In this document: positions 49,403 through 56,212 of the stretch, piece by piece
Position numbering within the stretch: position 1 is the first letter of the stretch
Layout: each line of letters starts with the position of its first letter
From: Methylobacterium sp. J-088
Lineage (GTDB): Bacteria; Pseudomonadota; Alphaproteobacteria; Rhizobiales; Beijerinckiaceae
Direction of reading: 5' to 3'
NCBI RefSeq assembly: GCF_022829295.1
Contig: NZ_JAKSYH010000200.1
Span: 1-64,000, forward strand
DNA length: 64,000 bases
Made by a program: the position numbers and the translations under genes
The notes under the pieces: model-generated
Seen by the model: only the letters and a program-made list of their open reading frames with translations
The model's database searches: none
Told to the model about the DNA's origin: nothing

Positions 49403-50289
49403 CAGGCGAGGCCGGAGAACAATTCCGGCGCGAGCGTCCCCTCGGCCACGAGGGCGACGGGGCCGGTCATCAGGACGTGGTCGTCAGCCCGCCACTCCAC
49501 GAACAATTCGCCGCCGGGCAGCGCGACCTGCGCCTGCCGGCCGATCATCCGCAGCCGGGAGGCCGCCACCACGGTCGCGCAGGCGGCGGTGCCGCAGGCG
49601 AGCGTCAGCCCGGCGCCGCGTTCCCAGACCCGCAGCTTGATCATCTCGCGGTCCGTCACCTGGGCGATCGAGATGTTGGCCCGCTCGGGAAAGAGCGGGT
49701 GGTTCTCCAGCATGGGTCCGATCCGGCCGAGATCGAAGGTCTCGGGGTCGGCCTCGACGAAGAACACCGCGTGCGGGTTGCCCATATTCACCACGGCCGG
49801 CGAGTGCAGGACCGGATCGTCGATCGGCCCGATCTGCAACTCGATCCGCCGCGTATCGGGAAACGGCTCCGACAGGGGAATCTCGTCCCACGCAAGCTTC
49901 GGCCGGCCCATATCGACCGTGAAGGCGCGCTCCGACACCCGGCGCACGCCGAGGAGGCCGGCCTGGGTCTCCAGCGTCAGCCGGCCCCCCTCGGCGGGGC
50001 GGGCCATGGCCGGATCGTCGAGCATCGCATAGGCGACGCAGCGCGTGCCGTTGCCGCAGGCACCGGATTCCGAGCCGTCGGTGTTGTAGATCCGCAGGAA
50101 CGCGTCCGTGCCGGGGCTCACGGGATCGTGCAGCACCATCATTTGATCGAAGGACGAGGCGGGATCCTGGGCGATCGCCCGCGCCTCACCGGGCTGGACC
50201 CGCGCGCTCGCGCCGCGCAGGTCCAGCACCACGATGGCGTTGCCGGCGCCGTGCATCTTCAGGAAGCGTCTGTGGGCGAGTGCGCTCAT
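49402..50289 (-). CDS. dapF: Diaminopimelate epimerase
   Basis: This 295-residue enzyme interconverts LL- and meso-diaminopimelate for lysine and peptidoglycan. The two catalytic cysteines are in [10 protein letters not shown] and [21 protein letters not shown] is at the N terminus. mtaB follows directly and is likely co-transcribed. The start region faces the divergent exported protein at 50511. Confidence 0.96.
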
Positions 50290-50510
50290 GCGGTCCCGCA
50301 GCTGGAAGGGGTTGGCCGGCTATATGGCAAAACCGACGGGTCGGCGCGAGTGGCCTGCCGTCGTGGCAGATGCGCCGCATCCGCGACCCTCCTGCGCGAC
50401 CCTCTTGCGCAGCACTGATGCACGTCGCACTCGCGGGCGATCCCGATCGTCGCTACCCTATGTGGTGGAAAGCCCGGACCATCCGCTGGGCCCCGTCCGG
50501 AGCGCCCATC

Positions 50511-51248
50511 GTGATCCGCCTTCGTCCGCTTGCAATCCTGTCCGTCGGTCTCATGCTCGGTGTCGGCCCGCTGGCCGCCCAGCAGCCGGCTCCACCACCC
50601 TCGACCGCACCGTCCCCGGCCCAGACGAACCCGTTGCCGACCACCACGGCTCCGAACCCGGCGCCCGATCCGGGCAAGAGCCCGGCGCCGGCGCCCGAGC
50701 AGGCGGTAGCGCCGCCGCCGGCCGGTCAGAGCGCCGTTGGGACGCCCGCACGCCCGACCCTGATCGACAAGCCCGGCGAGCCGGGCGATGTCGACGAAGT
50801 GACGCTGCCCGCCAAGCCGGCCGCCATCGTCACCGGCAAGACGAAGTGGGAGGAGGCGGTCGTAAACCTCAAGCAGGCCTTCGCGCGGATCGAGGCGGAT
50901 CTTGCCAAGCTCGGCGTCGCGCCGGCGGGCCGGCCGCTCGCGGTCTTCACCCGCACCGACGACGATGGCTTCGAGTTCGAGGCGATGATCCCGGTGGCGG
51001 CCGCGCCGAACCCCGTGCCCGCCGAGCCGGACGGGCTGCGCTTCGGCACGACGCCCTCCGGCAAGGCGCTGCGCTTCGCCCATAGGGGCTCCTACGAGTC
51101 GATCGACAGCACCTACGAGACGTTGACCGCCTACCTCGATGCCAAGGACATCGTGGTGCAGGACCGCTTCGTCGAGGAATACGCCACCGACCTCAAGGAC
51201 GGCACCGACGACAATCTCGACGTGAATATCTACGCGCTGGTGAAGTAG
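50511..51248 (+). CDS. Exported protein with GyrI-like effector-binding domain
   Basis: This 245-residue protein has a signal peptide (RPLAILSVGLMLGVGPLAAQ), a Pro/Ala-rich linker (about 28-75) and a C-terminal domain (about 105-245) resembling the GyrI-like small-molecule-binding fold: AVFTRTDDDGFEFEAMIPV, HRGSYESIDSTYETLTAYLD. Envelope versions of this domain are of unknown function. The start is GTG at 50511; longer in-frame ATG starts (50417, 50460) would bury the signal peptide. Confidence 0.72.
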   Translation: MIRLRPLAILSVGLMLGVGPLAAQQPAPPPSTAPSPAQTNPLPTTTAPNPAPDPGKSPAPAPEQAVAPPPAGQSAVGTPARPTLIDKPGEPGDVDEVTLPAKPAAIVTGKTKWEEAVVNLKQAFARIEADLAKLGVAPAGRPLAVFTRTDDDGFEFEAMIPVAAAPNPVPAEPDGLRFGTTPSGKALRFAHRGSYESIDSTYETLTAYLDAKDIVVQDRFVEEYATDLKDGTDDNLDVNIYALVK

Positions 51249-51266
51249 GGGGTCGTATCCACGGTT

Positions 51267-51310
51267 CCACGTCTCTCCCTCCCCCCTCTGCGGGGGAGGG
51301 AGAGACGTGG
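51267..51310. terminator. Perfect 19-bp-arm palindrome after exported protein gene
   Basis: CCACGTCTCTCCCTCCCCC pairs exactly with GGGGGAGGGAGAGACGTGG across a short loop. It lies 19 nt after the stop codon and has no T-run. The core matches the terminal arms of palindromic element B, so it may be a half element serving as a terminator. The truncated Crp remnant begins just beyond it. Confidence 0.6.
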
Positions 51311-51329
51311 CCGGAGCGTGCTCAGGGTC

Positions 51330-51565
51330 CGGCCGCGCATCCCCTGCAGCACGCGGTTGATGTGCACGGGCGTGAGACCCAGCGCGTCGGCGAGATCGGT
51401 CTGTGTGATCGGCAGCGGGCAGCGGTGATCGCCAGCCAAGCCCACCGATTGCAGCTTCAGGTACAGCTCGCAGAACAGGTGCGCGACGTGTTCGAAAGAC
51501 GTGCGACGGCCCATGCTGACCAGCCATTCGCGGAAGACCGCAGCGTCGATCAGGGTGTCGCGACT
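51330..51565 (-). pseudogene. Crp/Fnr remnant: HTH part only
   Basis: Minus-strand reading gives DTLIDAAVFREWLVSMGRR, then SFEHVAHLFCELYLKLQSVG and the helix-turn-helix ITQTDLADALGLTPVHINRVLQ, clearly the C-terminal part of a Crp/Fnr protein. The cyclic-nucleotide-binding domain is missing, the upstream frame changes to unrelated sequence near 51570, and the family's last residues are lost where the palindrome begins. It is probably a decayed duplicate. Confidence 0.72.
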
Positions 51566-51585
51566 ACAGCTCCTCGACCTTCGGA

Positions 51586-51746
51586 TGAACGTCGAGGTTC
51601 GGCGGGGCCAGGGCTTCGCTGATGACCGGCTGTTGCGCCTGATGTGGCGATGGCTGGCGCTGCACGAGCGGATAGCCGCCATGCTGCCGGGGATCCCCGA
51701 GCCCGAGCACGACGCGGATGTGCGGGCGATCCTACGAAGACCCTAA
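51586..51746 (+). pseudogene. Possible C-terminal gene fragment
   Basis: A plus-strand frame reads DDRLLRLMWRWLALHERIAAML and PGIPEPEHDADVRAILRRP before a stop at 51744-51746. The end looks like natural protein, yet the frame is lost where the Crp remnant begins, so this may be the tail of a deleted gene. I do not recognise the family. It stops right before the first ATGTAA palindrome. Confidence 0.35.
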
Positions 51747-51747
51747 A

Positions 51748-51764
51748 ATGTAAGCTTTTTACAT
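51748..51764. promoter_or_regulatory. ATGTAA-N5-TTACAT palindrome, site 1
   Basis: ATGTAA-gcttt-TTACAT; flanking A and T extend the match by one base pair. The centre lies 70 bp before the ATG of the small gene at 51826. It is the same motif as 52919-52935 and 53342-53358. Confidence 0.65.
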
Positions 51765-51825
51765 TCCGTCCCGGGAGGCGCATGTTTGAGGCTGACGACG
51801 CACACGGCCTCTAGGGGAGGTGAGC

Positions 51826-52041
51826 ATGGACGATCTGACAGGCGCCCCCATGGTGAGGCTGCATGTGATAGCTGCCTGCCTCGGTATCCCGGTGGACAGC
51901 TTCTTTACCGGCCATGAGGCCGCAGGACGCTTCGTCGAGGTGGGTCAGTGCCTGCGGCTATGGGACAGGATCAAGACCGCCGATGGCCGGCGCCGAGCAC
52001 TGGAATGCCTACGCGAACTGGCGGATGAACCAGCGACATGA
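51826..52041 (+). CDS. Small XRE-tail-like protein
   Basis: This 71-residue protein has a strong upstream AGGGGAGGT. It resembles the C-terminal tail of XRE-type regulators (VIAACLGIPVDSFFTG, then LRLWDRIKTADGRRRALECLREL) but has no DNA-binding helix-turn-helix. It is related to the product at 52954-53250 (shared IA..L.....SF, then L..W..I....GR......RE). Function unknown; a modulator that pairs with a regulator is one possibility. Expression may depend on the ATGTAA palindrome upstream. Confidence 0.7.
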   Translation: MDDLTGAPMVRLHVIAACLGIPVDSFFTGHEAAGRFVEVGQCLRLWDRIKTADGRRRALECLRELADEPAT

Positions 52042-52060
52042 CGCCTGTCGCACAGCTGGA

Positions 52061-52789
52061 TCAGAGTTCCGGAGCGGTATTCCCCTCGATCAGCCGGGCG
52101 TACTCGATCTCGGCTAGACCGTAGGTGTCCCCCGCGCGGTCGAGCAGGCCGTCGCGGTCGATGATCTGGACGACGCCACGGCGCTTGGTGACCAATTCAT
52201 CTCGCTGCAACGCTCGCAATGCGGTCGTCACGCCAGGCCGCTCGACGCCCAGCATCAGCGACATGAACTCTTGCGTGACCGTGATCTCATCGCGGTCGCT
52301 CCGGTCCTGGCACATCAACAGCCAGCGGGCGAGACGCATCGCCGTGCTGCCCTTGGCGTTTGCGAAGGCCGTCTGGGCGGTTTGAATATGTTGGGCCCGG
52401 ACGTATCGGCACAGGACACGACGAAGCGCGGGGCGCGCCTCCATCATCACGCGCAGCGCGTGCACGTCGATCGACTGCACGCGCCCGGCCATCTGCACGA
52501 AGTGCGTGTGCGGGCTGCGGTCGTCCTCGAGTAGGATGGGGAGGACGCCGACTGCGGCCTCGCGCCCGAGCAGCCCGATCTCGACGCGACCGCTCGGCGC
52601 GTCGCTGGTGACGGAGACGATGCCCGCCTCCACGAAGTGGACGGTCTCGACCGGTGTGTTGGCCGAGATGAGCACCTGTTTGAGAGCCATTGCCCCGGGG
52701 CGCAGGGCGGGCAGCAGTGCGGCGAAATCCTCCGGCGCGAGTGCGCGCAAGAGGCGGTTGCGCAGGTCGGCCTGCCTGAGGTCTGCCAC
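52061..52789 (-). CDS. Crp/Fnr-family transcriptional regulator
   Basis: The 242-residue protein has a cyclic-nucleotide-binding-type beta-roll (about 12-125) and a C-terminal winged helix-turn-helix (about 165-200, EFMSLMLGVERPGVTTALRALQR). The cysteine set of true Fnr is missing, and the cAMP-contact residues are not clearly kept, so the signal is unknown. It ends 19 nt from the convergent gene at 51826. The second ATGTAA palindrome lies 130 bp upstream of its start, which suggests autoregulation or control by another factor. Confidence 0.9.
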   Translation of the reverse strand: MADLRQADLRNRLLRALAPEDFAALLPALRPGAMALKQVLISANTPVETVHFVEAGIVSVTSDAPSGRVEIGLLGREAAVGVLPILLEDDRSPHTHFVQMAGRVQSIDVHALRVMMEARPALRRVLCRYVRAQHIQTAQTAFANAKGSTAMRLARWLLMCQDRSDRDEITVTQEFMSLMLGVERPGVTTALRALQRDELVTKRRGVVQIIDRDGLLDRAGDTYGLAEIEYARLIEGNTAPEL

Positions 52790-52918
52790 GACGACTCTCG
52801 CGCGGAGGGCAAGAGCGCATATCGTCCCTCAAGCGCCAGCGCCCGGATCGAGCCAGCGACGCGCTGGAGCTATTGTGATTTCCTTAGTTTAGCAACCTAC
52901 TTAAACGACGAGTGAGTT

Positions 52919-52935
52919 ATGTAAATATTTTACAT
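52919..52935. promoter_or_regulatory. ATGTAA-N5-TTACAT palindrome, site 2
   Basis: TATGTAAATATTTTACATA is a perfect 19-bp dyad, the best of the three copies. It lies 130-146 bp upstream of the Crp/Fnr gene, in AT-rich DNA just beyond the stop of the small gene at 52954. Confidence 0.7.
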
Positions 52936-52953
52936 ATACTGCTAGACGTCAGA

Positions 52954-53250
52954 TCACTGTGCCGCGTTCGTATCTTTTAGGGCATAAGACCTAATTTTTT
53001 CCGCGCGTAGGACCTCCCTGGCGAACGCGAACACCGCGCCACGACCTTCCGGCGAACTGATCGCGAGCCACGTCTGGATCAGCTGCGAGGTGTCTTTCGG
53101 CTGGCTCGTCGGGGCGGCTTCGTAGAAGCTGGCCGGGGCGCAGTCGAGCAACCCCGCGATCCGGACAAGGATCGGGTGATCATCAGTATCGGTACCGGTG
53201 GCGGGCGCATCCGGCGTCGGCATATCCATGCGGTTTCTCGCATCGCTCAA
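52954..53250 (-). CDS. Small XRE-tail-like protein, second copy
   Basis: This protein of 98 residues (or 91 from a second ATG at 53229) has a Pro/Asp/Thr-rich N terminus, then ILVRIAGLLDCAPASFYEA and LIQTWLAISSPEGRGAVFAFAREVL. The pattern matches the product at 51826. No helix-turn-helix is present. It is divergent from the small gene at 53389, with the third ATGTAA palindrome between them. Confidence 0.65.
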   Translation of the reverse strand: MSDARNRMDMPTPDAPATGTDTDDHPILVRIAGLLDCAPASFYEAAPTSQPKDTSQLIQTWLAISSPEGRGAVFAFAREVLRAEKIRSYALKDTNAAQ

Positions 53251-53341
53251 GCGTGTATGGTCAGGTACAGATGCACCTTAGCATTGTAAATTAGGTTGTA
53301 GAACAGTAAAATATATACAATGATAGCGGTAAAAGAGCTTT

Positions 53342-53358
53342 ATGTAAAAAAATTACAT
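53342..53358. promoter_or_regulatory. ATGTAA-N5-TTACAT palindrome, site 3
   Basis: ATGTAA-aaaaa-TTACAT lies in the divergent gap, 92 bp before the minus-strand start at 53250 and 31 bp before the GTG at 53389, overlapping where that gene's promoter should be. DNA from 52,850 to 53,400 is notably AT-rich. Confidence 0.65.
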
Positions 53359-53388
53359 TTTTTTATCCTAGGGTGGAAGGAAAACATC

Positions 53389-53580
53389 GTGGATCTTAGC
53401 CGTGATCTGGATGCCGTTGCCGAAGCAATCATCGCCGCTCATCGCCTTATCGAGGAGCACGGCACACAGGAGATGAAGACTCTAAGCCGAACGCTCCTGC
53501 TCAAGGTTGCTCAGAAAATTGCATGCCGCAGCATACCGACCCGGGAAGCGCGAGATCCCCACTTTGATGGCACCGACTGA
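53389..53580 (+). CDS. Small helical hypothetical protein
   Basis: The protein has 63 residues and reads as helices (DLSRDLDAVAEAIIAAHRLI, then KTLSRTLLLKVAQKIA). The start is GTG at 53389 with GGAAGGA upstream; the longer frame from 53320 would place the palindrome inside the coding region and starts with AT-rich sequence unlike protein. Family unknown. Confidence 0.55.
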   Translation: MDLSRDLDAVAEAIIAAHRLIEEHGTQEMKTLSRTLLLKVAQKIACRSIPTREARDPHFDGTD

Positions 53581-53749
53581 CAGAGATGGTGTCGACTGAC
53601 GGAGGCAGATATCTTCGACAGTCGTTTTTGCCGCACCCACCTATCATAGGCCTAGCGTTTTTCCCATCTTATGATTGATTTTCCGATTGAAACGTCACTA
53701 AAAGTTGTGGTGATGCGGCTTCTCAAGATTACGAAAGGCATCTTCGCTC

Positions 53750-54385
53750 ATGCCGCGTCGGTCGTCGCAGAACACGCTATCTCCCGCATCGCTACCGCTG
53801 ACGACGCTCAACATCGGCTTGTGGGAGGAGAACGTCGGTACGGATCGCGTCCGATGCGATGCGGTGATGGCTCAAATGTTTGGACTGTCTGCCGCGGAGG
53901 CCAGTGAGGGGATCTCACGGGCGCAACTCATGTCGATCTTCCATCCCGAGGACGTCGTCCAAGACCCGGAGCTTCGCCGCAGCGTGCGCGAGGACGGCGG
54001 CTTGTTCGTGTGGGAACACCGCATTCTGCCTACGCCCGGCGTCGTGCGCTGGGTACTCGCCCGTGGCCACTACGAGCGGGGCCCGAACGGTGGGATGCAT
54101 GGGCGTGGGATCGTCATCGACGTGACCGATAGTCGGACCGATGGAGAGATCGATGGTCCGTCACGTTTCCTCACGACCTACGAGACGCCGGGCGCTGTCT
54201 TGGACCGCATCGCTCAGCGAGCGATCGAGATCTGCGAGCTGATCCGCAGCTTGGACGCGGGCAAGTCGGTTCGGCTCCGTCCGCTGATCGAGGCCCTCCT
54301 ACACGAGCTTGGTTGCCAACTCGCGGCTTCACTGCGCGAGGAAGCGGGCGTTCCCCAACGGCCCCGGGGCACCAAGATCCACTGA
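53750..54385 (+). CDS. PAS-domain protein
   Basis: The 211-residue protein has one PAS fold of the type 3 kind (about 22-130: TLNIGLWEENVGTDRVRCD, then FHPEDVV, FVWEHRILPTPGVVRWVLARG, GMHGRGIVIDVTD). Its C-terminal part (about 145-200) is helical and has no kinase or cyclase output. Such stand-alone PAS proteins are common in Methylobacterium. The signal and partner are unknown. Confidence 0.78.
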   Translation: MPRRSSQNTLSPASLPLTTLNIGLWEENVGTDRVRCDAVMAQMFGLSAAEASEGISRAQLMSIFHPEDVVQDPELRRSVREDGGLFVWEHRILPTPGVVRWVLARGHYERGPNGGMHGRGIVIDVTDSRTDGEIDGPSRFLTTYETPGAVLDRIAQRAIEICELIRSLDAGKSVRLRPLIEALLHELGCQLAASLREEAGVPQRPRGTKIH

Positions 54386-54417
54386 GGATGAGCTGAAGGC
54401 TCGACGCATCCTCGCCG

Positions 54418-54789
54418 CTATGCGGATCGGGGCGGAGCCGGGCGGCAAAGGATCACAGCGGTGTCTGGGCAGCTATGATTGTGGCGGACAGCATGGTCCC
54501 GAACGCCTTCTCTGAGGTTCAGCCGCGCCCGCATGGCCTTACCCGGCTTGAACTGGACGTTCCGCTTGGCCACGACGACGACGCTCTGGCCCGTGCGCGG
54601 GTTGCGACCCATGCGGGGGCGCATCTCCCGCGTAGCGAACGTGCCGAAGTCGCGCAGTTCGACACGGTTGCCGTCCGCCAGCGCGGCGGCGATGCGATCG
54701 AGGATGACGTCGACCACCGCCTCGACATCCTTGGCGTAGAGGTGCGGGTTCTGCTCCGCGATGCGGGCGACAAGTTCGGACCGGATCAT
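54418..54789 (-). CDS. IHF beta-like DNA-bending protein
   Basis: This 123-residue protein of the HU/IHF family resembles the IHF beta subunit: IRSELVARIAEQNPHLYAKDVE, VELRDFGTFATREMRPRMGRNP and FKPGKAMRARLN. The beta-arm proline region (GRNPRTGQ) is intact. The last 28 residues, rich in His, Cys and Pro, are beyond the usual end and may be a read-on tail. As an accessory copy it may replace IHF beta at certain sites; the main ihfB should lie elsewhere. Confidence 0.86.
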   Translation of the reverse strand: MIRSELVARIAEQNPHLYAKDVEAVVDVILDRIAAALADGNRVELRDFGTFATREMRPRMGRNPRTGQSVVVVAKRNVQFKPGKAMRARLNLREGVRDHAVRHNHSCPDTAVILCRPAPPRSA

Positions 54790-54913
54790 ACGGCACCGAT
54801 GCCGCCCAGTTCATCGAACTGCAACCGCACCGTGGCGTGCCAGCGTTTCAGAGGGCGTTCGGAGTAAGAAATGGGTTCGTCGCAGCGGCTTCTCCGGTGC
54901 TGCGGGTCCGCAA

Positions 54914-55174
54914 TCAGTTCCACGCCTTGGGTCGAATGCCGACGAACGACGCTATGCCAACCGCCTCCAGCATCGCTTCGAAGGCGGCACGTGCATCCGT
55001 ATCGGTCGCAAAAGTGGTGTCCCATCGGATGCAGCCGGAGGTGTGCACAACCTCCATGCGCCAACACTCCGGCGAGCCTGGGAAGCGATAGATCTCGATC
55101 TCGACCGTCTCGCCATCCCGCGTGACGGGGCCGGATAGCGGAGAGTGCTCGAAGTCGCAGTCCACCTCACTCAT
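54914..55174 (-). CDS. Hypothetical 86-residue protein
   Basis: The product (MSEVDCDFEHSPLSGPV...) contains VEIEIYRFPGSPECWRMEVV and a helical DARAAFEAMLEAVG. It reads like a real small cytoplasmic protein; I do not recognise a named family. The start at 55174 (or ATG 55177) follows GAAAGG. The longer frame adds 36 Arg-rich residues and is less likely. Confidence 0.62.
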   Translation of the reverse strand: MSEVDCDFEHSPLSGPVTRDGETVEIEIYRFPGSPECWRMEVVHTSGCIRWDTTFATDTDARAAFEAMLEAVGIASFVGIRPKAWN

Positions 55175-55361
55175 CATCGACCTTTCTCGATACTCACGTC
55201 TGGCGCGCTTATCGGACACGATCCCGGTTCGGGACGTCTCTTGGGCCGACTCGCCGACGGCTCGATAACTGGCTGCGCGCATCCTGCCCCTGAGCCGCGT
55301 TGCTTATCGGCTCTGCCGCAGAGCTGGCCCCGCCCCGTGAGCCGATCGGGGCGGGGCCGTG

Positions 55362-55601
55362 CTATGACTCGACGGGCTTCCTGGACGGTGCAGCAGCCCC
55401 GTAGCGCTCCACCAACTCGGCTTGCCCGGCATCGGTGATGCTGTACTCGACGCTGTCGGCGGCCGGATCGGTTCGTCCGGTGGCGATGACCAAGCCCAGC
55501 GTTTCCAGGCGCCGCATGTAGACGCTGACCTGGTAGAAGCGCGGGCCGGTCTGAGCGAGCATCTGCAGCCGGTATAGGCTGGTAGGGGGAAGCTTGTGCA
55601 T
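55362..55601 (-). CDS. Small winged-helix-like protein
   Basis: The protein has 79 residues: LPPTSLYRLQMLAQTGPRFYQVSVYMRRLE gives helices, then LGLVIATGR and VEYSITDAGQAELVERYG give the wing and last helix typical of PadR- or MarR-like folds. Too short to place in a family. It could be a small DNA-binding regulator. Confidence 0.58.
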   Translation of the reverse strand: MHKLPPTSLYRLQMLAQTGPRFYQVSVYMRRLETLGLVIATGRTDPAADSVEYSITDAGQAELVERYGAAAPSRKPVES

Positions 55602-55656
55602 CGCCTTTCAATGTACCGTTGGGCAACGTACTCGTTAAGCCTGGCGGCTGCGTCGA

Positions 55657-55821
55657 TTAGTTGAGGTTGCCGGCGATGGCAGTGAACTTCGCGGCGAGTC
55701 TCGACCCCACTAGTCTGAGAGCGGCGATGATCACGACGGCGATCAGAGCAGCAATCATGCCGTACTCGATCGCGGTGGCACCGGTCCCGTCAAGGATGAA
55801 GCGTTGCAGCAGCTGAGGCAT
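55657..55821 (-). CDS. Orphan Flp/Fap-type IVb pilin
   Basis: This 53-residue product has the Flp pilin pattern: a short leader, G-ATAIEYGMIAALIAVVII with the +5 Glu followed by Tyr, and a short tail. Flp pilins are processed by a prepilin peptidase and assembled by Tad machinery. No tad, cpa or rcp genes are in this window. I start at 55821 (MPQLLQRF). Confidence 0.85.
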   Translation of the reverse strand: MPQLLQRFILDGTGATAIEYGMIAALIAVVIIAALRLVGSRLAAKFTAIAGNLN

Positions 55822-55945
55822 CGCACGGATCCTGCGCCAATCCAGGCTCACAGGTCTGTGATATCGTCTGTATGTTTACGGTCTGTGAAGGGATGTGCAC
55901 CGGGCGCTGTTCAACCTCTTGCCCTCGACATCGAACCCGAACGGA

Positions 55946-56212
55946 TCACGGTGGAGTCGGATGTGCCGCCATGACGATCGCCGCGACAGCGGTGCGGAAC
56001 GTCTTCTCCTGCGGACCCGCTCGGTTCGCGACCTCGGCGGGGCTGATCGACGAGGCAACGAGCGCGGCGATGTCGAGGCTGTAGCCGCTGGCAAAGCGGT
56101 AAGGGCCGGCCGTTGAGTCTCGCATGAACAGGTCGATCGCCGCGACGATCTCGTGGCTGCTGATGCGGCCGGCCCTGCGCAGGTCGGCGACGGTCGGAAG
56201 TCTGCCGTGCAT
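55946..56212 (-). CDS. Hypothetical 88-residue protein
   Basis: Reading from ATG 56212: a helical N terminus (LPTVADLRRAGRISSHEIVA), then YRFASGYSLDIAALVASSIS and a Pro-rich end. Composition fits coding DNA but no family is recognised. The plus-strand frames here look worse. Confidence 0.45.
   Translation of the reverse strand: MHGRLPTVADLRRAGRISSHEIVAAIDLFMRDSTAGPYRFASGYSLDIAALVASSISPAEVANRAGPQEKTFRTAVAAIVMAAHPTPP

Follow-up and report, generated by a model that had tools for sequence, protein, structure and literature searches.

Two reports describe the systems closest to the locus presented below. RebR, a Crp-Fnr protein that regulates the reb operon in Azorhizobium caulinodans, recognizes a site given as GT(A/G)(A/C)C-N4-G(T/G)(T/C)AC (PMC5527310). 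PraR, an XRE/HipB-like protein, has the consensus CAAC-N5-GTTG, the centre of which is odd (PMC5527310), and in rhizobia regulators of the PraR type have roles in symbiosis and in attachment to roots (PMC4149787, PMC5527310). In Rhizobium, PraR is controlled by a small partner, the anti-repressor CinS, which joins PraR as SinI joins SinR of Bacillus subtilis (PMC4149787).

Here, we describe a gene cluster of Methylobacterium sp. J-088, contained in a 64,000-nucleotide stretch of DNA (the whole of the analysed sequence, hereafter the window), that bears likenesses to these systems and differs from each of them. Like the reb operon it involves a Crp-Fnr protein, and the RebR half-site, which starts GTA(A/C), is near the GTAA present in the window and the GTAC present in another genome of the genus (G108); however, the published RebR consensus is even-centred (5-N4-5), and the window site is one bp shorter (PMC5527310). 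With PraR and CinS the cluster shares the N5 spacing, the prospect of a small partner controlling a repressor, and two small proteins, P1 and P3, that resemble the PraR-type tail, although the half-site letters differ and P1 and P3 have no HTH (PMC4149787, PMC5527310). By analogy with SinI, the small HTH-less proteins could pair with the region through which an XRE repressor oligomerises; the window operator, however, is not a SinR site. What is apparently undescribed here is a predicted Crp/Fnr regulon under autoregulation, in which both the odd-centred operator and the targets are unusual. In 5.39 million open-access papers, we found no mention of the palindrome motif strings and, judging by title, no paper on Crp regulons in Methylobacterium that deals with this regulon.

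A preliminary description of this DNA had reported three identical palindromes, ATGTAA-N5-TTACAT, within 1.6 kb and no fourth exact copy in the window. Our exact scan agrees, with copies at 51748-51764, 52919-52935 and 53342-53358, and finds no further one in the window even when up to two mismatches are allowed. In each of these sites, a base occupies the dyad centre. Shuffling the window gives an expectation of 0.08 copies, and 0 of 100 shuffles reach three. The sites (operators 1 to 3) and the features around them are the following:

51748..51764, no strand: operator 1, ATGTAAGCTTTTTACAT, 61 bp upstream of the P1 start codon, ATG 51826.
51826..52041, plus strand: P1, 71 aa, an HTH-less protein that resembles the C-terminal tail of PraR-type XRE regulators.
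52061..52789, minus strand: Crp/Fnr-type regulator (clade A), 242 aa, start GTG, with HTH_Crp_2 and cNMP_binding domains; the proposed palindrome binder.
52919..52935, no strand: operator 2, ATGTAAATATTTTACAT, 129 bp upstream of the Crp/Fnr start codon, GTG 52789; the proposed autoregulatory site.
52954..53229, minus strand: P3, 91 aa, start ATG 53229, an HTH-less protein that likewise resembles the C-terminal tail of PraR-type XRE regulators.
53283..53310, minus strand: predicted P3 promoter, TTTACT-16-TACAAT, a consensus match only, with its -35 inside the second operator element.
53304..53320, no strand: degenerate second operator element, CAGTAAAATATATACAA, with two mismatches in 10 core letters.
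53342..53358, no strand: operator 3, ATGTAAAAAAATTACAT, in the region that separates the divergent genes of P3 and P4.
53389..53580, plus strand: P4, 63 aa, start GTG, a small helical protein weakly like the C-terminal tail of some PAS proteins.
53750..54385, plus strand: PAS-domain protein, 211 aa, PAS_3 31.7 bits, a regulon neighbour.

The placement of each site upstream of a gene, also part of the preliminary description, is borne out, but one start had been misplaced: the conserved start of the minus-strand gene of the divergent pair is ATG 53229 and not TTG 53250. Operator 3 has gaps of 112 bp to the P3 ATG 53229 and 30 bp to the P4 GTG 53389. At the PAS-domain gene (53750..54385) no operator copy of its own was seen.

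The genome of J-088 (G000; 6,406,791 bases in 285 contigs) contains ATGTAA-N5-TTACAT exactly at four places, where hundreds of copies had been named beforehand as an outcome that would speak against a small regulon. The fourth place (C138:13013) lies upstream of a P1 paralogue and matches operator 1 in its spacer and in all 17 letters. At up to two mismatches the genome has 21 places against 11 for a reversed control, so that degenerate matches alone carry little weight. Two copies with altered yet still matching arms (TTGTAAAATTATTACAA), at C135:811 and C274:1468, lie between paralogues of the divergent pair P3/P4. In the paralogous clusters, the position of the site is kept and both arms change together, from ATGTAA...TTACAT to TTGTAA...TTACAA, as would be expected of a bound two-fold site. 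When the outer letters may be A or T (WTGTAA-N5-TTACAW), seven places are found in G000, namely the three in the window, C138:13013, C135:811, C274:1468 and C9:10485; the last of these lies near a cobalamin riboswitch, and the other six lie at these gene clusters.

We then turned to a sample of 111 genomes of the genus Methylobacterium, in which the core TGTAA-N5-TTACA was scored. The analysis worked from gene families because a wider pattern, WTGTAANNNNNTTACAW, which marks 46 of the 111 genomes, mixes different kinds of site; an approach from this pattern alone was dropped, its listing including at least two other kinds (WTGTAAYANTRTTACAW and TTGTAATAACATTACAA-like). For P3, the set comprised 22 full-length genes from 14 genomes, drawn from the full profile list down to E 7.5e-9, with 160 bp scanned upstream of each (a 49-residue fragment, G028:C2:192216, which has no site, stands outside the 22). 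All 22 genes have the site with at most one core mismatch and 16 have it exactly, against a mean of 0.16 and a maximum of 1 of 22 in dinucleotide shuffles. Other spacings between N2 and N10 occur at up to one mismatch in at most 3/22 and never exactly, and neither N4 nor N6 is enriched. The site is absent from five distant P3 relatives (0/5). The P3/P4 element at 53304-53320 lies 38 bp, centre to centre, from operator 3, and a counterpart with up to three core mismatches is found in 22/22 P3 loci, at an offset of 37-40 bp in 21 of them and 44 bp in one; in matched control windows, the best values are 3 to 6 core mismatches.

The other families of the cluster follow with smaller or less uniform counts. 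P1 homologues in fetched loci have the site at up to one core mismatch in six of seven cases; two of these seven loci (the window and L016) came from pattern matches, L057 and L060 are likewise pattern-derived, and the seven exclude L020 and L064, which are cut by contig ends, as well as the weak L148, L061 and a second one at L060. P4 genes with no P3 have an exact site in 3/3 cases, a count that is biased because these genes came from the pattern search, and at a fourth such gene, found by its protein (L191), there are two sites, either of which departs from the core by one mismatch. Upstream of 32 clade-A Crp/Fnr genes (200 bp scanned; a fragment at the edge of C135 lies outside the set), the site is exact in seven, present with at most one mismatch in 13 and with at most two in 18, where shuffles average 0, 0.14 and 2.4, respectively; 14 of the 32 have no site at up to two mismatches within 200 bp, and the 12 genes of clade B, a related group of Crp/Fnr genes, have none (0/12). 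The best clade-A sites lie mostly about 118-120, 129 or 151-157 bp before the start, and some genes have a second near 105. Summed over 50 sites, the sequence reads AATGTAAAAWTTTTACATT with an A/T-rich centre; its core letters are partly built in because the sites were chosen at up to one core mismatch, which does not apply to the flanks and the centre.

The sites and their conservation, like the gene homologies described below, are direct results of computation. The palindrome very probably acts as the switch of a small gene circuit, apparently not described before, that some Methylobacterium strains possess. That the copies could be chance occurrences, or a dispersed repeat with no regulatory role, is suggested by the fact that WTGTAANNNNNTTACAW also marks unrelated genes, which means that the letters alone are not specific. 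The shuffle and spacing controls and the 22/22 conservation at P3 loci contradict chance, and the joint change of both arms in paralogues also argues against this explanation, which we regard as highly improbable. The small regulon of a Crp/Fnr gene and three small genes proposed in the preliminary description gains support from the few genomic copies and from sites that are kept upstream of orthologous genes in other genomes, where their absence from sister strains would have spoken against it.

The protein encoded at 52061-52789 has the two parts that characterize the Crp/Fnr superfamily, a cNMP-binding-like N-terminal domain (PF00027, cNMP_binding, 33.2 bits; cut-off 27.5) and a Crp-type C-terminal HTH (PF13545, HTH_Crp_2, 50.5 bits; cut-off 27), and the solved chains nearest to it are Cmr and other Crp/Fnr proteins. 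Clade A, to which it belongs, consists of 31 full-length genes and one truncated gene at 64-100% identity in 15 of the 111 genomes, and its next relatives have at most 53% identity; since up to 25 candidates were scored per genome, a few genomes could hide a further member. Named relatives are from Methylobacterium strains at 23 of 24 loci, the remaining one being a distant match (38%) to an Acidobacteria MAG. No clade-A gene was found outside the genus at E 1e-68 in an order-wide search (397 genomes, 141 genera; up to 7 candidates per genome), and in plasmids nothing matched the Crp protein at E 1e-60. The recognition helix reads ERPGVT in 28 of the 31 readable clade-A proteins and in 0/12 clade-B proteins.

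Sites also occur where the genes of the cluster are separated. They are found before clade-A genes with no P1, P3 or P4 homologue detected in the fetched stretch (L052, L053, L056, L059, L066). They also precede P3 genes in whose vicinity no Crp gene was detected (L084, L087, L091). Every genome concerned possesses clade A. In a blind search of the 111 genomes, the spacer-restricted core GTAAAWWWTTTAC occurred at 17 places, 13 of which are at these loci (the other four being in G001, G022, G064 and at G090:C209). This core is present in 10/15 clade-A genomes versus 3/96 others (Fisher 1.4e-8, or 1.8e-7 without G090, whose place is elsewhere). Matches of the A/T-type pattern at L054, L067 and L068 have no member of these gene families, so such sites exist elsewhere too. 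Because Crp, P1, P3 and P4 are linked, part of the co-distribution comes free and would be possible even without binding. Together, the sites at lone genes, the co-distribution of GTAAAWWWTTTAC and the switch of operator described below favour a Crp/Fnr binder, and the palindrome is most likely bound by the clade-A Crp/Fnr protein encoded beside it. Our main reading, to which we assign a probability of about 0.7, is that the locus is an accessory, autoregulated Methylobacterium regulon whose operators would be bound by a dimer of this protein, controlling crp, P1 and P3/P4.

Sites of Crp, Fnr and NtcA are even-centred two-fold palindromes, unlike the odd-centred sites of the window, and in Crp and Fnr sites the half-sites are one bp further apart. 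From a comparison with Crp and Fnr sites, it had initially been proposed that the binder may be another kind of regulator. Although the centre is indeed odd, this proposal is poorly supported because the sites track clade A of the Crp/Fnr proteins and, where another Crp/Fnr type is present, an even-centred Crp/Fnr-like palindrome is found at some of the same gene classes instead. The cluster could be controlled by another, unlinked regulator, for example a TetR-, GntR- or LysR-like protein, families that often use odd-centred sites, and our search for co-distribution of a second unlinked gene covered the XRE family only. Such a regulator, however, would have to serve only these clusters, given that six of the seven WTGTAA-N5-TTACAW places in G000 are there, and the operator differs where the Crp/Fnr type differs, which makes control from such a gene quite unlikely in our judgement.

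The difference in operator comes from relatives of the module. Divergent tail/P4 pairs are more widespread than the window cluster, and 11 distant pairs were inspected. Only L191, in the clade-A genome G085, has TGTAA-N5-TTACA; the other 10 show at best two to four core mismatches. The genome G108 has three P3/P4-like pairs, at which the best TGTAA-N5-TTACA has four core mismatches, and no clade-A gene was detected in it, although one could have been missed because the genome is 94% complete and in 420 contigs. In G108 (L187, L189, L226, L227) the palindrome GTACG-N4-CGTAC, which has the even-centred layout of the RebR consensus (PMC5527310), occurs at five places versus one for a reversed control: at two of the three pairs, in a tail/PAS intergenic region, ahead of a resolvase gene and, at a distance of about 205 bp, ahead of a Crp/Fnr gene. 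The protein encoded by this Crp/Fnr gene has the recognition helix RRPGVT. A pair in G053 carries GTATG-N4-CATAC, and in all, GTA-type 5-N4-5 palindromes are present in three of the 10 distant pairs (shuffle mean 0.02, max 1), where the remaining spacings between 1 and 8 give none. GTACG-N4-CGTAC also lies about 140-200 bp before Crp/Fnr genes in G046, G038, G057 and G053, all four of which pass the HTH_Crp_2 cut-off, and in G053 before a tail gene as well.

Genus-wide, GTACG-N4-CGTAC is not enriched, being found in 54/111 genomes and often in fewer copies than the reversed control. Twenty of its places were fetched, 12 with an A/T-type and eight with a G/C-type spacer. Five of the 12 A/T-spacer places precede a Crp/Fnr or tail gene, a fraction to be read knowing that three of the 12 were picked because an earlier match lay near; the G/C-spacer places do so in 0/8. 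At the 12 clade-B genes, spacings between 1 and 8 were scored and none gave a GTA-type palindrome. The GTACG-N4-CGTAC loci before Crp/Fnr genes and tail/P4 modules, which besides those of G108 include L258-L261 and L263, probably represent a second Crp/Fnr operator family in the genus. We tentatively raise the possibility that a Crp/Fnr clade evolved its odd-centred operator by a one-bp contraction together with a change in the recognition helix, in which GTA-N8-TAC (the G108-type GTACG-N4-CGTAC) would have become GTA-N7-TAC (TGTAA-N5-TTACA), the same target modules being kept and the operators diversifying by clade.

P1 and P3 have no Pfam match, and P1 has no NCBIfam match either. Profile searches join the two in one family and show homology to the C-terminal region, and only to that region, of four PraR-type XRE proteins encoded in the same genome, all four of which contain the stretch FQQVQKYE. 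A model built from 52 tail segments, with XRE proteins omitted, matches the four at E 9.7e-14, 2.6e-13, 1.4e-7 and 2.6e-7 (1072 ORFs), values that are somewhat favourable because the iterated search that supplied the segments had collected XRE proteins as well. The N-terminal HTH_3/XRE domain that marks PraR-type proteins is absent from P1 and P3. SinI-type anti-repressors are homologous to the oligomerising tail of their target repressor, and P1 and P3 have a homology of this kind. The AlphaFold model of P3 consists of helices only, at moderate confidence (mean pLDDT 71.3, pTM 0.37), and solved structures searched with the P3 profile gave nothing significant (best E 0.5). The P4 family weakly matches the tail of two PAS proteins from related clusters (E 5.4e-5 and 1.1e-4; 1505 ORFs), and the window's own PAS protein is not among its matches. 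The best explanation of these similarities is that P1 and P3 correspond to the C-terminal tail of PraR-type XRE repressors, present as separate proteins, and, less firmly, that P4 corresponds in the same way to a tail found on some PAS proteins.

This tail homology, together with the published N5 spacing, makes a PraR-type XRE protein the main rival for the role of binder: a repressor of this type encoded elsewhere would bind the palindrome, P1 and P3 would be its anti-repressors in a negative feedback, as CinS is for PraR, and the Crp/Fnr gene would be only another target. When the window sites are compared with the PraR consensus, the spacing agrees and the half-site letters, GTAA instead of CAAC, do not. 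PraR-type proteins are present in 111/111 genomes, which the palindrome sites are not. The PraR subgroup at 59-82% identity to the queried protein is absent, among the matches listed, from the clade-A genomes G067, G081, G083, G084 and G085, while at least 12 genomes that lack clade A have it, so that no PraR subgroup among the matches listed follows the sites. Moreover, GTAA-N5-TTAC lies within 300 bp upstream of 0/4 PraR-type genes of G000. We consider a PraR-type binder unlikely.

Returning to the clade-A Crp/Fnr protein as the putative binder, which could be an activator or a repressor, we infer its role and the action of the tail proteins along the following lines. The protein would bind the palindrome as a dimer, one subunit per GTAA half, and would control its own gene via 52919-52935, P1 via 51748-51764, and the divergent P3 and P4 via 53342-53358 and the weaker 53304-53320. 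Since the weaker element covers the predicted P3 -35, occupancy of both could block or contact RNA polymerase. The clade-A protein would jointly adjust the expression of the tail proteins and its own. By analogy with SinI-SinR and CinS-PraR, P1, P3 and P4 would most likely join and disable, or retune, XRE or PAS proteins. Should the tails associate with repressors of the PraR type or with PAS sensors, a state sensed by the Crp/Fnr protein would lead to the relief of another repressor.

The HTH-less tail proteins are thus possible anti-repressors of PraR-type regulators, and, if the proposal is true, one regulator family would steer two others via decoy subunits, as the modules encode XRE and PAS tails free of DNA-binding domains. 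Methylobacterium genomes contain many uncharacterised HTH_Crp_2 regulators; for one clade of them, a specific operator and a set of targets are now predicted, and for relatives a second operator. These predictions make it possible to test directly how specific the binding is, and whether the spacing in Crp/Fnr sites must be even, as is usual.

Directly upstream of the Crp/Fnr start codon, positions 52790-52850 of the window (minus strand) form a conserved leader with a consensus of about GGGCGCTGACGATTGAGGGACnGCGTGTGCTCTTGCCC. Crp/Fnr genes of both clade A and clade B have a leader of this type (alignment of 35 distinct sequences; 3 of 38 dropped). An RNA reading of this leader was rejected for now, with folding no better than shuffles in two of three cases (z -0.01, 0.13) and weakly better in the third (z -1.50). 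An Rfam search of 50000-56000 gave nothing at gathering level, all four matches being below the cut-offs. Beside the cluster, a 150-aa ORF at 51230-51682 (minus strand), with an HTH_Crp_2 match (38.7 bits) and no cNMP domain match, looks like what is left of another Crp/Fnr gene. At 51267-51310 lies a perfect inverted repeat (19 bp, with a loop of 6 bp), possibly a terminator or a repeat element.

Other palindromes were observed along the way. The related class WTGTAAYANTRTTACAW occurs about once per genome in many genomes of the genus and is possibly another regulator's site; its version in G000, with one letter changed (GTGTAACAATGTTACAT; L006:1501-1517), lies before an LTXXQ-family gene. 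Also in G000, ATGTAATAACATTACAA (L005:1501-1517) lies about 200 bp from a cobalamin riboswitch, and similar TTGTAATAACATTACAA sites recur in several genomes.
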